From NCBI GenBank assembly GCA_022565665.1, contig JAIUMI010000018.1, positions 1 to 49,296 of the forward strand: a DNA stretch of 49,296 bases, given 5' to 3'. This DNA is from Glycocaulis sp. GTDB taxonomy: Bacteria > Pseudomonadota > Alphaproteobacteria > Caulobacterales > Maricaulaceae. Below, one piece after another: positions 39,215 through 44,862 of this stretch (its first letter is position 1; each line of letters begins with the position of its first letter). Under the pieces are notes generated by a model. That model saw only the letters and a program-made list of their open reading frames with translations. It searched no databases and had not been told where the DNA came from. The translations under genes were made by a program, and so were the position numbers.

Positions 39215-40819
39215 ATGACCTCCCCCACAAACGTGTCGCCCGAATGGGCGCGGCGGCGCACCTTTGCCATCATCTCCCACCCGGACGCCGGTAAAACGAC
39301 GCTTACGGAAAACATCCTGCTCAGCGCGGGCGCGATCCGCCTGGCCGGACAGGTCAAGGCACGCGGTGAGAACCGGCGCACCCAGTCAGACTGGATGAAG
39401 ATCGAGCGCGAGCGGGGCATTTCCGTCTCCGCGTCGGTGATGACGTATGAGTATGGCGGGCTTCTGTTCAACCTGCTCGATACGCCCGGCCACGAGGACT
39501 TCTCCGAGGACACGTACCGCACGCTCACGGCCGCCGACAGCGCGATCATGGTGCTGGACGCGGCCAAGGGCGTAGAGCCGCGCACGCTCAAGCTCGTCGA
39601 GGTGTGCCGCCTTCGCGACATCCCGATCCTCACCTTCATCAACAAGATGGACCGTGAGGCGATGGACCCGTCCGAACTGCTGGACGATATCCAGGACAAG
39701 CTGGCGCTGGATGCTGCGCCCATGCAGTGGCCGTCCGGCTCCGGCAACCGGTTCAAGGGGGTAGCGGACCTCGAACGTGACGAGTTCGTGGTCTATCGCC
39801 GCCCCTCTGCCGATGATGACGAGCCGGTGAGAAGCCAGCGCGTCTCCCTGTCCGGCAACGAGATCGCCTCGATCCTGAACGAAGCCGAGCTGGCCGAGCT
39901 GCGCGAAGGTGCGGACCTGGCGCGCGAGGTCTGCCCCAGCTTCAACCTGCAGAGCTATCGCGAAGGGCATATGACGCCGGTCTATTTCGGCTCGGCCCTG
40001 CGCCAGTTCGGCATATTCGAGCTGCTCGAAGCGCTAAAGCAGGTTGCACCCGGACCGGAGGCCCAGCCTGCGACAGGCGGCGCCACGCCGGAGCTGACGC
40101 CCGATGGCAAGGAGGTGGCCGGCTTCGTCTTCAAGGTGCAGGCCAATATGGACCCGAACCACCGCGACCGGGTGGCCTTCATGCGGCTGTGCTCAGGCAC
40201 CTTCAAACGCGGCATGAAGCTCAAAACCGATAGCGGCAAGCTGCTCACGGTCTCCAGCCCTATCATGTTCTTCGCCCAGGACCGGGAACTGGCCGAGGAA
40301 GCCTATGCCGGTGACGTGATCGGCGTGCCCAACCACGGCGCGCTGCGCGTCGGCGATACGCTCTCTGAGAGCGGCAGATGGCGGGTGGCGGGCATTCCGA
40401 ACTTTGCCCCTGAACTGCTGCGCCGGGCGCGGCTGAAAGATCCGCTCAAAGCCAAGCACCTGAAAAAAGCACTGGAAAGCCTTGCCGAGGAAGGCGTCAC
40501 CCAGCTTTTCCGTCTGCAGGTCGGCGGCGACTTCGTGGTCGGCGCGGTCGGCGCGCTGCAGATCGACGTGATGGCAGAGCGTGTGGCGGCTGAATACAAT
40601 CTGGAAGTCACATTCGAACCGAGTCCCTATGATACCGCGCGCTGGATCACCGGGGACAGGGACAAGCTGGACGCCTTCATAGACCGGCATAAGTCAGCCA
40701 TAGCCGAAGATATTGATGGCGCACTGGTCTTCATGGCCAAGAGCGCCTGGGAAGTCTCCTATACTGCGGAGAAGTTCCCTGACATTGCCTTCCACAAAGC
40801 CAAGGAGCGCCGCGCATAA
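39215..40819 (+). CDS. prfC: Peptide chain release factor 3
   Basis: 534 residues, a translational GTPase that recycles RF1/RF2 from the ribosome. G motifs: SHPDAGKTT (G1), the switch I region around ERERGISVSAS, LDTPGHEDF (G3) and NKMDREAMDP (G4). The C-terminal domains follow the usual RF3 order (FKVQANMDPNHRDRVAFMR; QLFRLQVGGDFVVGAVGALQ). Start ATG 39215 follows AGGA. Its stop TAA shares one base with the ATG of the mscS gene, so the pair is coupled. Confidence 0.95.
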   Translation: MTSPTNVSPEWARRRTFAIISHPDAGKTTLTENILLSAGAIRLAGQVKARGENRRTQSDWMKIERERGISVSASVMTYEYGGLLFNLLDTPGHEDFSEDTYRTLTAADSAIMVLDAAKGVEPRTLKLVEVCRLRDIPILTFINKMDREAMDPSELLDDIQDKLALDAAPMQWPSGSGNRFKGVADLERDEFVVYRRPSADDDEPVRSQRVSLSGNEIASILNEAELAELREGADLAREVCPSFNLQSYREGHMTPVYFGSALRQFGIFELLEALKQVAPGPEAQPATGGATPELTPDGKEVAGFVFKVQANMDPNHRDRVAFMRLCSGTFKRGMKLKTDSGKLLTVSSPIMFFAQDRELAEEAYAGDVIGVPNHGALRVGDTLSESGRWRVAGIPNFAPELLRRARLKDPLKAKHLKKALESLAEEGVTQLFRLQVGGDFVVGAVGALQIDVMAERVAAEYNLEVTFEPSPYDTARWITGDRDKLDAFIDRHKSAIAEDIDGALVFMAKSAWEVSYTAEKFPDIAFHKAKERRA

Positions 40820-42024
40820 TGGACACTCTCACCGATCTCTGGGCCATTGTTCTCGATGTCTGGAACACGAGTTTTCTGGGTCTGAATGTCGGTCAGGCGC
40901 TTATTGGCCTCCTGGTCATATCGCTGGCGTTCGCAGTCCGGGGTGTGTGCACCTGGCTGATCACGAAATTCCTGCTGGCCCATGCCCAGAAATCCACCAC
41001 CAAGCTGGACGAGAAGGTGGTGCGTGCGCTTTCCGGCCCGATCCGGCTGATCCCGGTGATTATCGGTGTCTATATCGCGGTGCTGATCGTCGGGCTGGAC
41101 CAGCCCGATGGCGAAGGCCCCGGCATCAATATCGTGCGTACCCTGATCGTCATCGCGATCTTCTGGGCGCTGCACAACGTGGTCACGCCGATCTCCTACC
41201 TGCTCTCCCCCCTGCAGCGGGCGCTGGGACCGGTGCTGGTGGACTGGCTGGCCAAGACCTTGCGCATTCTCTTCATCATTGTGGGTGCCGGGGCGGTGCT
41301 CCAGCTCTGGGGTATTCCGGTGGCACCGATCGTGGCAGGCCTCGGCCTGTTTGGCGTGGCGGTCGGTCTTGGCGCGCAGGACCTGTTCAAGAATCTCATT
41401 TCCGGCCTGCTGGTGCTGACCGAGAAGCGCTTCCTGCCGGGTGAGTGGATTCATGTCGATGGCGTGGTCGAAGGCATTGTCGAGCAGATCAATTTCCGCT
41501 CCACACTGGTCCGGCGTTTTGATCGTTCGCCGGTCTATGTGCCCAATTCCTTCCTGTCAGACAGGGCCGTGACGAACTTCTCGCGCATGACTCACCGCCG
41601 GATCCTCTGGACCATCGGGGTGGAGTACAAGACCACGACCGAGCAGCTGCGCTATATCTGTGACAAGACGCTGGAATGGCTGGACAACCACTCCGGTTTC
41701 GCCCGTCCCCCTGAAGTGCCGCTGGCGATGCGGGTCGACAGTTTCGGGGCGTCCTCCATCGACCTTCTTCTCGTGTGCTTCACCAATACGACGGCCTGGA
41801 ATGAGTGGCTGGAACTGAAAGAGGAGCTTGCCTTTGCGATGAAGGAAATCGTCGAGGGCGCCGGCACCGCCTTCGCCTTCCCGTCCACCAGCGTCTACAT
41901 GGATAATGGCGCAGAGGTGTTCGTGCCCCCAGAGGTGGAGAGCCACGCCCGCGCCCGCCTTGAAAGCGCAGAGCCCGAGCAGCCCGAGGATGCACTCGCC
42001 CGCGTGGAGGAAAGCGACGATTGA
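40819..42024 (+). CDS. MscS family mechanosensitive channel
   Basis: 401 residues, small-conductance mechanosensitive channel protecting against osmotic downshock. Four to five N-terminal helices (roughly 20-45, 70-95, 105-125, 140-165) precede the pore helix TM3 (APIVAGLGLFGVAVGLGAQD) and the beta domain (LVLTEKRFLPGEWIHVDG; VEQINFRSTLVRRFD; VYVPNSFLSDRAVTNFSR). The C-terminal cap domain is present, with an acidic tail (EQPEDALARVEESDD). ATG 40819 overlaps the prfC stop; its own stop overlaps the TTG of a 48-codon ORF. Confidence 0.93.
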   Translation: MDTLTDLWAIVLDVWNTSFLGLNVGQALIGLLVISLAFAVRGVCTWLITKFLLAHAQKSTTKLDEKVVRALSGPIRLIPVIIGVYIAVLIVGLDQPDGEGPGINIVRTLIVIAIFWALHNVVTPISYLLSPLQRALGPVLVDWLAKTLRILFIIVGAGAVLQLWGIPVAPIVAGLGLFGVAVGLGAQDLFKNLISGLLVLTEKRFLPGEWIHVDGVVEGIVEQINFRSTLVRRFDRSPVYVPNSFLSDRAVTNFSRMTHRRILWTIGVEYKTTTEQLRYICDKTLEWLDNHSGFARPPEVPLAMRVDSFGASSIDLLLVCFTNTTAWNEWLELKEELAFAMKEIVEGAGTAFAFPSTSVYMDNGAEVFVPPEVESHARARLESAEPEQPEDALARVEESDD

Positions 42025-42167
42025 GCCCGAAGGCGCGCACATCGAAACCCAACCCGGTTGCGCGCGGCCTTTCACGGCGCTCGCGCAAGGCCGGCGCCAT
42101 GCCCACAAAGAAGGGCAAGGGCTCGATCTACAAGCGCCACCCCAAGCACAGGGGCGATGAGGCGTAG
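42021..42167 (+). CDS. arfA: ArfA-like alternative ribosome-rescue factor (48 residues)
   Basis: 48-codon ORF, shorter than the usual gene-calling cutoff. TTG start at 42021 overlaps the mscS stop (TTGA); GGAGG at 42006-42010 gives a strong ribosome-binding site with a 10-bp spacer. The core KKGKGS-I-YKRHPKH is close to KKGKGS-YMRKGKH of E. coli ArfA, and the 19 residues between the conserved Asn (NPVARGL versus NAIEALL) and KKGKGS have the same length in both. ArfA recruits RF2 to ribosomes stalled without a stop codon and places its basic tail in the empty mRNA channel. The C-terminus here is rich in Lys/Arg/His as needed. Sitting two genes behind prfC (release factor 3) fits a termination role. 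Function is inferred from the motif, not shown. Confidence 0.6.
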   Translation: MSPKARTSKPNPVARGLSRRSRKAGAMPTKKGKGSIYKRHPKHRGDEA

Positions 42168-42190
42168 GGGGCTGATGCTCAGCCCCTCTT
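42168..42190 (+). terminator. Hairpin directly after the ArfA-like stop codon
   Basis: GGGGCTGA (42168-42175) pairs with TCAGCCCC (42179-42186), loop TGC, tail TCTTCCTCTC. The stem begins at the first base after the TAG stop. It could be a terminator, or an RNase III-type structure as in E. coli arfA mRNA. Confidence 0.65.
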
Positions 42191-42268: not shown

Positions 42269-43354
42269 CTAAGCCGCCTTCATTTCCTTGCGCATGCGCC
42301 AGAAGCGCAAGGCCCGTTCGGCGTCGTCACGGGTAATGCCGGCGTAAAGCTCGCCGAGCGCCTGGGCTTCGCTCGACAGATTGTTCGCGCTCTGCCGGCG
42401 CAGGACGGCAAGCGTGACGAACAAGGCCTTGTCAAAGCCGGCGGCCTTGCAGATCAGGGCGAGCCCGTCCGGGCTGGGATGGCGAAGCGCGCGCTCTGCA
42501 GCCGTGTAGTCCACGCCGGACAGATCGGCGAGGGCGGCAATGCACTTGACCCTCTGGCCTTCGCGCAGGAGCCGCACCAGCAAAGAGCCGTCGAGCGATT
42601 TGCGCACGCGCTGGGCGAGCACGAACCGGCGGGCCTCGGCAATCTCGCGGTCATCGGCCAGGCGCGCTTCCAGCCGCGCATGAGACGCGGCCATGGCGGC
42701 GTCGGCGGCGGCCGGATCAAGCTTTTCAAACCGCTTCATGATCCGCTCGCGCAGGCTCGTCTCCACCACGTTCATCAGATCGGCCAGAAGATCGGCGGGC
42801 ATGTCGGCGCGATTGACCATCGGGCCTTGCAGCACGGTGCTGTCCTCGGCCCGGCGCGTCATCGTTTCCAGCGCCGAGCGCGACAGGGCTGCGCCGTCAT
42901 TGGCGGCAAGGCGGGCCAGCGTCTCGTCATCGCCGCGCGCCACGATGGCGTCGGCCACGCGCTCCGGCACGTCTTCGCGTCCGGCCATGGCCCGGCGATG
43001 GTCCTCGCCGGCTTCCTCCACGATCCCGATAAGATCGGCCTCGGTCAGCACGCCGGAGCGGGCGAGGATGGGCGCAGCCACCTCAATGGCATCACGTGCC
43101 AGTTGCAGGACGAGCCCACGGGGGGCGATGGGCGCGTCGGCAAAGCGGCGGGCCAGCTCGGCGCGCGCATCCTGTGCGGTCTGCGCCGCCAGCGTGGAAA
43201 GCACGTGATCGAACTGGAAATGGGCTTCGGTGCCGTCGGGCGGCGTTTCGTCGAAGAACAGGTCGGTGACCTCGCGCAGCAGGGCACGGCGGCGCTCGGA
43301 GGATTTCTCCCGCGCCAGCTCGGTCAGGCGGTAAAGACGGCTTTCGGTGCCCAT
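42269..43354 (-). CDS. DUF2336 domain-containing protein
   Basis: 361-residue soluble, all-helical protein with HEAT-like repeated segments (EDVPERVADAIVARGDDETLARLAAN; DLSGVDYTAAERALRHPSPDGL). DUF2336 is largely confined to alphaproteobacteria and has no settled function; some members lie near cell-cycle or signalling genes. Start at ATG 43354 is the only one giving the usual N-terminus. Nothing is truncated. Confidence 0.8.
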   Translation of the reverse strand: MGTESRLYRLTELAREKSSERRRALLREVTDLFFDETPPDGTEAHFQFDHVLSTLAAQTAQDARAELARRFADAPIAPRGLVLQLARDAIEVAAPILARSGVLTEADLIGIVEEAGEDHRRAMAGREDVPERVADAIVARGDDETLARLAANDGAALSRSALETMTRRAEDSTVLQGPMVNRADMPADLLADLMNVVETSLRERIMKRFEKLDPAAADAAMAASHARLEARLADDREIAEARRFVLAQRVRKSLDGSLLVRLLREGQRVKCIAALADLSGVDYTAAERALRHPSPDGLALICKAAGFDKALFVTLAVLRRQSANNLSSEAQALGELYAGITRDDAERALRFWRMRKEMKAA

Positions 43355-44001: not shown

Positions 44002-44862
44002 ATGAGTGATACCCGTACCGGTTTGCGCGGGCGTCTGGACACTCTGGTGGAAAGCGCGCCCTTCCGGCACTTCATCACCGGGCTGATCCTTCTCAACGCC
44101 GTCATTCTCGGCCTTGAGACCTATCCGCTTCCCGCGCCCTTCTTGGGCGCGCTGATGATCGCCGACACGATCATCGTCTATCTCTTCGCGATCGAGATCC
44201 TGCTCAAGCTCTATGCCTGGCGCGCGAAGTTCTTCCGCTCTGGCTGGAACTGGTTCGATCTTGTCGTGGTGACCATTTCGCTCATCCCGGCGGCCGGGCC
44301 ATTTGCGGTCCTGCGCGCGCTGCGTGTCCTGCGCCTTTTCCGCCTGTTCTCGGTCGTGCCGGAAATGCGCCGCGTGGTGATGGCGCTGGGCCGCGCCATT
44401 CCGGGCATGGGCTCGATCATGATGGTGCTGTGCCTGATCTTCTATGTCGGCGCGGTGATGAGCGCGAAGCTCTTCTCCGACACCCATCCCGAATTCTTTG
44501 GCGATCTCGGTGCGGCGGCCTTCACGCTCTTTCAGGTGATGACGCTGGAAAGCTGGTCGATGGGCGTGGCGCGGCCCGTCATCTCCGAGCATCCGCTCGC
44601 CTGGATGTTCTTCGTGCCTTTTATCATCCTGACCAGCTTTGCGGTCCTGAACATGTTCATCGCCGTCATCGTGGACTCGCTTCAGGCCAAGCATTTCGAC
44701 GAGGAGAGCGAACGTCAGGCCAAGGCCACGGACGAGCGCACGCTCCTGCTCGAAGAGGTCCGCTCGATGAAGACTGAAATAGCCGAACTGAAAGCCCTGA
44801 TGCTGGCGAGCCAGGCTCAACCGCCGCGCAAGCGCCCGAAGGCCACCGACAGCTCGGAGTAA
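44002..44862 (+). CDS. Bacterial voltage-gated sodium channel (NaChBac/NavAb type)
   Basis: 286 residues, six-helix channel forming a homotetramer in the inner membrane. S4 carries the voltage-sensing arginines every third position (Arg105, 108, 111, 114 in LRALRVLRLFRLF). The selectivity filter TLESWS (181-186) is that of sodium-selective NavAb-like channels. S6 is FAVLNMFIAVIVDS, followed by a C-terminal neck and coiled coil (about 245-268). The last 46 bases overlap the 3' end of the convergent PBP gene. Likely role: motility, pH or Na+ homeostasis in a salt-adapted cell. Confidence 0.95.
   Translation: MSDTRTGLRGRLDTLVESAPFRHFITGLILLNAVILGLETYPLPAPFLGALMIADTIIVYLFAIEILLKLYAWRAKFFRSGWNWFDLVVVTISLIPAAGPFAVLRALRVLRLFRLFSVVPEMRRVVMALGRAIPGMGSIMMVLCLIFYVGAVMSAKLFSDTHPEFFGDLGAAAFTLFQVMTLESWSMGVARPVISEHPLAWMFFVPFIILTSFAVLNMFIAVIVDSLQAKHFDEESERQAKATDERTLLLEEVRSMKTEIAELKALMLASQAQPPRKRPKATDSSE

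Follow-up and report, generated by a model that had tools for sequence, protein, structure and literature searches.

A diverged gene of predicted ArfA descent at an old prfC-mscS locus in Glycocaulis

Does a small basic peptide encoded behind prfC and mscS in Glycocaulis descend from the ribosome-rescue factor ArfA, and would it still work as one? The question arises from a 48-codon open reading frame (ORF) in a 49,296-nucleotide stretch of Glycocaulis sp. DNA (contig JAIUMI010000018.1), the whole of which is called the window here. A preliminary description had read the ORF as ArfA-like and considered that an ArfA-type factor in an alphaproteobacterium would be notable. The literature bears out that last point. 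In the portions available, PMC11633108 counts ArfA in 0 of 2,376 alphaproteobacterial genomes and PMC10070815 calls it "not present" in Alphaproteobacteria. The reviews PMC8012679 and PMC8874680, likewise in excerpt, limit it to some beta- and gammaproteobacteria.

The elements of the first reading are all in the sequence: a 48-codon frame, a TTG start overlapping the mscS TGA, a GGAGG at ten nucleotides and a KKGKGS peptide (Table 1). Asn11 lies 19 residues ahead of the first lysine of KKGKGS (codons 42108-42125), and Asn14 and Lys33 of E. coli ArfA are also 19 apart in structure 5h5u, so the identical spacing claimed earlier holds. The peptide carries KKGKGS at this fixed distance from Asn together with a basic KH tail, and has one extra residue between GS and Y. 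The genes themselves are tightly packed, with a one-base overlap between prfC and mscS and a four-base overlap between mscS and the ORF. These overlaps are consistent with a single transcript and with translational coupling. Judged from the gene layout, coupling of the ORF to mscS is likely, and a transcript common to the ORF and the RF3 gene is plausible. Neither a tRNA nor any Rfam family at gathering score was detected in the window. Further along, positions 44002-44862 of the plus strand encode a 286-residue protein with a TLESWS stretch, which we take to read like a bacterial voltage-gated sodium channel.

Table 1. Features of the prfC-mscS locus in the window
Feature	Position	Strand	Basis or remark
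prfC, release factor RF3	39215..40819	+	Pfam RF3_C 139.9 bits; stop overlaps mscS start by 1 nt
mscS-type mechanosensitive channel	40819..42024	+	Pfam MS_channel_2nd, MS_channel_3rd
GGAGG	42006..42010	+	10 nt upstream of TTG; read from sequence
Predicted ArfA-derived gene	42021..42167	+	48 codons, TTG start, TAG stop
mscS stop TGA, overlapping TTG start (42021-42023) as aTTGA	42022..42024	+	
Conserved Asn11 codon, equivalent to E. coli ArfA Asn14	42051..42053	+	alignments, 5h5u
RKAGAMP segment, at the place of the RF2-contacting Phe25 of ArfA and following residues	42084..42104	+	
KKGKGS-I-Y, putative mRNA-tunnel motif, one residue inserted	42108..42131	+	alignments
Hairpin GGGGCTGA-TGC-TCAGCCCC	42168..42186	+	directly after stop, outside ORF; tail weakly T-rich; unflagged by terminator scan
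DUF2336 protein, convergent neighbour marking gene order	42269..43354	-	Pfam DUF2336 218 bits

The 48-codon ORF is a real, conserved gene. NCBI taxonomy places Glycocaulis within Maricaulaceae, the window's family, which is family f1 of our genome collection. A protein search found the ORF in 6 of 61 genomes, namely five of the six members of the genus and one further genome (G025). The ORF is present in the named records Glycocaulis albus, "Oceanicaulis sp. HLUCCA04" and an uncultured Euryhalocaulis MAG. All five ORF-bearing members of the genus retain the TTG that overlaps the mscS stop (aTTGA), and at two loci (L002 and L005) a stop codon upstream of the TTG leaves no earlier start available. 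Across 48 aligned codons, 7, 8 and 30 variable sites fall at codon positions 1, 2 and 3, with a pooled pN/pS of 0.14. In the other two forward frames the ratio is 2.85 and 1.86. On the reverse strand two frames give 2.95 and 2.17 and the third 0.20, but this last is interrupted by a stop in each of the five sequences. The frame thus behaves as conserved coding sequence, where the preliminary description had allowed that it might prove to be neither.

How far does the gene extend? A profile of six close relatives (A1) matched 7 of 137 family members, one of them (G124) by chance. We rejected the G124 match, since L011 falls in another frame of a gene resembling sigma-54 activators, and L015 stands at E 0.22. 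The sixth member of the genus (G004) gave no match to the ORF in protein and profile searches, and plasmid searches with the window peptide and the L075 peptide found no match. A DNA pattern for KAGAMP occurs at 31 places in 136 family genomes; six are known genes, and the other 25, all translated, are unrelated frames. In G025 there is a further copy of the peptide, in a KKGKGTPY form and away from mscS (L142:16075-16215). Its neighbour is, we presume, a GluQ-like gene, and this placement away from mscS makes one or more relocations of the peptide's gene probable.

To which family does the peptide belong? The Pfam ArfA model (PF03889) scores it at 13 bits, short of the cut-off of 25.5, and covers only residues 29-43 (15 residues). 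Orthologs score 13.4 (L002) and 12.9 (L003), and neither L006 nor L134, a peptide from another genus of the family, has a Pfam ArfA match. Searches with PF03889 gave 0 matches in the window's own genome and 0 in 150 genomes of the order. An NCBIfam scan of the peptide found no match, and DUF7230 (PF23876) was not listed in its Pfam scan at E values up to 10. The peptide also has no GGQ, unlike ArfB, which has its own GGQ hydrolase domain (PF00472).

Shuffled peptides offer a finer measure. We used an HMM of 18 ArfA or ArfA-like peptides, eight alphaproteobacterial and ten from other classes. The window peptide scored 13.6 bits, equalled by 3 of 19,968 and 2 of 19,973 shuffled peptides with the same composition. 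Its G. albus ortholog (L002) reached 18.6 bits, with 0 of 19,968 shuffles as high; under the same HMM the shuffles reaching the score, again of 19,968, numbered 0 for L003, 0 for L004, 16 for L005 and 187 for L006. L134 scored 19.7 bits, which none of 19,966 shuffles of it reached; with an HMM of the other-class peptides only, 40 of 19,871 shuffles equalled its score. A score like that of shuffled basic peptides, which had been named at the outset as an outcome that would tell against ArfA, was not found: the window score exceeds nearly all shuffles. A basic composition does ease chance likeness, and 1-4 per ~20,000 shuffles equal the window score, depending on the HMM used. Moreover, PDB sequences gave nothing significant against A1, the best match being to a small part of ribosomal protein uL2 (E 0.44), with short AP-4 stretches no better. 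Both observations would suit an unrelated small basic ribosome-associated peptide that has converged on KKGKGS, and it is gene order and full-length alignment that weigh against such convergence.

Gene order connects the ORF with recognisable ArfA. When we compared the RF3, MscS and DUF2336 proteins of the window with the collected loci by tblastn, two loci, L074 (genome G481) and L075 (G378), proved to run prfC, mscS, arfA and then DUF2336 on the opposite strand, exactly as in the window. Both belong to family f127, which shares the window's class though not its order, and were first found with the Pfam model alone, without the window. Their identity to the window is ~52-56% for the end of prfC (over the available 86-98 residues), 48% for mscS and 37% for DUF2336. 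Their peptides exceed the Pfam ArfA cut-off, have the same Asn-KKGKG spacing and are 36-40% identical to the window peptide, the figure varying with the alignment used. The arfA start lies 14 nt past the mscS stop in L074/L075; the window start overlaps that stop. Closer to the window, G074, of another genus in the same family, has prfC (76%) and mscS (61%) followed by the peptide L134, MIKRRKPSGKAPKPRNPAAKGLRSRARPAGPMAAKKGAYVRRAKHAKPTEAEE; its ATG start and the mscS stop overlap as ATGA. L134 was found with a profile (A3) whose rows include window relatives, Pfam recognises no family in it, and tblastn found no DUF2336 in the 20 kb around it.

Profile-profile comparison (hhalign) carries the likeness across the peptide's length. 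The six close relatives aligned with nine alphaproteobacterial ArfA-like peptides, seven above the Pfam cut-off and two below it (L022 and L030), over 44 columns with a probability of 95.3 and a score of 38.3. None of 150 column-shuffled controls reached that score, the highest being 16.7. The nine in turn aligned at a probability of 98.1 with ten other-class ArfAs, that is, the ten PF03889 matches of a phylum-wide search that are not marked as the window's class, which we take to be beta- or gammaproteobacterial. Set directly against these other-class ArfAs, the relatives show an alignment confined to the KKGKGS end, with a probability of 61 that drops to 10 once L134 is included. This direct comparison is weak, so the homology link goes via the alphaproteobacterial members. 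Ten alphaproteobacterial rows of DUF7230 type matched the nine alphaproteobacterial peptides at 98.1, other-class ArfA at 61 (0 of 150 shuffled controls as good) and the six relatives at 54; L090 and L096, which are rows of A3, belong to neither hhalign profile group. Synteny and profile comparison both give good support to descent of the ORF from ArfA, which on these sequence grounds we consider very likely. The full-length alignment and the four-gene order in common with recognisable ArfA make convergence on KKGKGS very improbable. The ORF is then, as read from sequence, an ArfA-derived gene at the old prfC-mscS locus.

Would such a descendant recruit RF2 as E. coli ArfA does? In the part of the structural study available (PMC5378476), an ArfA patch of Leu19, Leu24 and Phe25 binds Trp319, Val198 and Phe217 of RF2, and changing Ala18 to Thr blocks release. 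We mapped these residues through the ungapped stretch from Asn to KKG, taking E. coli numbering from 5h5u. The window peptide has Arg15, Gly16, Ser21 and Arg22 at the places of Ala18, Leu19, Leu24 and Phe25, and so does not have the patch. All seven window-family sequences read (the window, L002-L006 and L134) share an Arg at the Phe25 place and R-x-AG-x-M, and none has an aromatic residue between Asn and KKG. The f127 positional orthologs retain Phe at that place, and RF2 of the window genome retains the equivalents of Val198, Phe217 and Trp319.

One might still propose a canonical ArfA that recruits RF2 exactly like the E. coli protein, its patch being merely hard to align. The identical Asn-KKGKG spacing, the intact RF2 side of the pocket and the Phe kept by the f127 orthologs would all fit. 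We nevertheless regard this proposal as quite unlikely, given the Arg and the missing aromatics in seven of seven sequences, the missed Pfam cut-off and an in-gene terminator that was not found. Replacement of the hydrophobic patch that accepts RF2 by a conserved R-x-AG-x-M means that any release-factor contact would have to differ. Loss of the patch does not exclude rescue, because in ArfT of Francisella, which works with RF1 or RF2, the Phe25 place is likewise not hydrophobic, as described in the available part of PMC6299226.

A second departure concerns expression control. Typical arfA genes have a terminator or an RNase III hairpin in their coding sequence, which yields a non-stop mRNA. 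In L074 and L075 the ORF contains a hairpin of about -25 kcal/mol whose 3' edge carries five or six T and whose start precedes the stop by 150 and 74 nt, respectively (z of -4.3 and -3.7 against dinucleotide shuffles). L075:1501-1677 and L074 are thus alphaproteobacterial arfA genes with an in-coding hairpin and T-run, like arfA and brfA. Outside the window's family, four of nine alphaproteobacterial loci (L073, L074, L075 and L078) combine a T-run of at least four T with a strong in-ORF fold, meaning one that no more than 9 of 200 codon-order shuffles equalled. In L073 and L078 the T-run sits within the 3' arm of the hairpin, and L076 has a strong in-ORF fold (7 of 200 shuffles) with no T-run. 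Among other-class arfA controls, the best hairpin starts before the stop in all five examined of the ten. A simple terminator scan left the in-ORF hairpins of L073, L074, L075 and L078 unflagged. Its loop limit is 8 bases and the apical part of these hairpins is larger, so the claim rests on ViennaRNA energies, shuffles and T-runs.

The window-family loci present another picture. Across the window, L002-L005 and L134, a T-run occurs in 0 of 6, and the best in-ORF fold is reached by 12-197 of 200 shuffles. L006, which lies outside the codon-shuffle test, has its best hairpin (-16.7) inside the ORF and without a T tail. We rejected non-stop control of the window gene on finding neither an unusually stable in-ORF hairpin nor a T-run. 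Lacking such a hairpin with T-run, the gene is probably constitutive, and not expressed only upon failure of trans-translation.

Laid beside ArfA (PF03889; E. coli YhdL), the window gene is alike in encoding a small basic protein with the 19-residue spacing, KKGKGS, a Tyr and a KH end. It differs in falling below the Pfam cut-off, in having Arg for Ala18 and none of the Leu19/Leu24/Phe25 patch, in the extra Ile of GS-I-Y and in the absence of an in-ORF hairpin with T-run. The ArfA of L074/L075, at the same four-gene order, has the patch Phe, passes Pfam and carries the hairpin and T-run that the window gene does not. The position of an ArfA relative beside mscS parallels that of gammaproteobacterial arfA beside mscL, another mechanosensitive channel gene, as given in the available part of PMC10070815; arfA is convergent with mscL, whereas the window gene is co-directional with mscS and prfC. 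Of the ArfA-like identity first proposed, descent stands on synteny and profiles; action in the manner of ArfA does not follow, in view of the Pfam cut-off, the RF2-binding residues and the absent in-gene terminator. Because these defining features are lacking, the gene should not be filed as canonical ArfA.

What role could the peptide play in a cell that already has rescue systems? We found tmRNA in six of six Glycocaulis genomes and three RF-1-domain genes in each of the six. In the window genome these three are RF1, RF2 and a short GGQ-bearing ArfB, and ArfB was also read in G004. With tmRNA and ArfB in place, the ORF would be a third rescue route, its proposed job being the same as that of ArfB from a separate gene. 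The company of tmRNA and ArfB could instead favour a derived protein that binds the ribosome or RNA via its basic end and serves some other purpose, for example tuning RF3 or the expression of the mscS operon. Such a protein would accord with the overlaps among ORF, mscS and prfC, and with the loss of both RF2 patch and in-gene terminator alongside conservation of the replacement segment. We judge a non-rescue role unlikely, since the tunnel motif is retained and ArfT, by the available account in PMC6299226, rescues with neither a hydrophobic Phe25 residue nor non-stop control.

ArfT indeed offers a close comparison. By its published description (PMC6299226, in part), it is of similar size (40 residues) with a basic C-terminal motif, has no hydrophobic residue where the window peptide has Arg22, and shows no sign of non-stop control. 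Its motif differs, reading KKGGSTNKK against KKGKGS in the window. The excerpted PMC6514570 describes ArfT as a broadly but sporadically distributed family, and the window peptide may overlap this wider family.

Recognisable ArfA is also encoded elsewhere in the class. PF03889 exceeds its own cut-off in 6 of 289 alphaproteobacterial genomes (G335, G353, G367, G378, G412 and G481); G353 is a single contig, and estimated contamination is 7% for G412, 10% for G481 and 1% for G378. Phylum-wide, the cut-off is passed in 10 of 120 genomes. Matches above the Pfam cut-off at the same slot, together with the in-gene hairpin and T-run, indicate that ArfA does occur in Alphaproteobacteria, contrary to the two surveys cited above. 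Several peptides of the six genomes, among the class matches listed (12 of 16), approach NPxA..L....F.....KKGKGSY.RK. With a broader profile, A2, matches at E <= 0.01 occur in 35 of the 385 genomes of the class, including the window genome and the suppliers of A2's own rows. That search gave 36 matches and 30 loci (six matches without a locus), and 22 of the 30 are among those listed; L091 is not among the A2-search loci read. Many of the weaker A2 matches have no KGKG residues, and some are spurious. A2 omits L005, and A3 omits L003, L004, L005 and L016 as well as L087, L088, L092, L094, L095 and L098-L101, which are partial, broken, near-duplicate or unrelated frames.

The KGKG-less forms draw in DUF7230. 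Small alphaproteobacterial peptides at L083-L086, L089, L093, L097, L131-L133 and L135 have the pattern NPxAxxL...V..KK-x-Y.RK and, by their sequences, look like a KGKG-less branch of an ArfA superfamily. Three of eight KGKG-less forms scanned pass the Pfam cut-off for DUF7230 (function unknown), with which the window peptide has the NPxAxxL...Y.R(K) frame in common, although DUF7230 has no KGKG residues and the window peptide no Pfam match to it. As this KGKG-less group matches ArfA by profile, a function for DUF7230 may follow. In family f102, whose genomes measure 1.2 Mb, a KKGKGSF form (L081) lies directly downstream of a gene that we take to be photolyase-like, and a KKKIY form (L090) lies one gene further from the same gene, which suggests that the two forms interconvert.

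Which reading best accommodates the locus as a whole? We favour, with a probability of about 0.66, a diverged ArfA descendant that performs release-factor-dependent rescue through a changed contact and is probably constitutive. The most probable reading of the sequence is a protein acting like ArfA or ArfT, and a backup, release-factor-dependent rescue factor most likely describes the product. Ribosomes re-initiating at the overlapping TTG of a prfC-mscS transcript would translate the ORF. When a ribosome has stalled at the 3' end of a broken message and its mRNA tunnel is empty, the basic KKGKGS...KH end would occupy that tunnel. The upstream half would keep a class-I release factor in the A site and thereby allow release of the peptide. 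Counted against this reading are the Pfam shortfall, the NCBIfam blank, the weak direct match to other classes, the changed patch residues, the inserted residue, the presence of tmRNA and ArfB, the few carriers in the family and G004 without a match.

The window's branch, as its sequences have it, is derived, with the KKGKGS tunnel end kept and both the release-factor interface and the expression control apparently changed. A bolder version, which we hold only tentatively, is that ArfA has been rebuilt here, keeping the tunnel sensor and discarding the RF2 patch and the non-stop switch. R-x-AG-x-M might then recruit RF1, either release factor or the RF3 of its own operon, and rescue would be constitutive and tied to a mechanosensitive channel operon. 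The arfA of f127 and the rewritten ArfA descendant in Glycocaulis, at the same locus, form a testable natural series. This series addresses how a rescue factor switches its release-factor partner and loses feedback control, and part of DUF7230 gains a possible function from the work.
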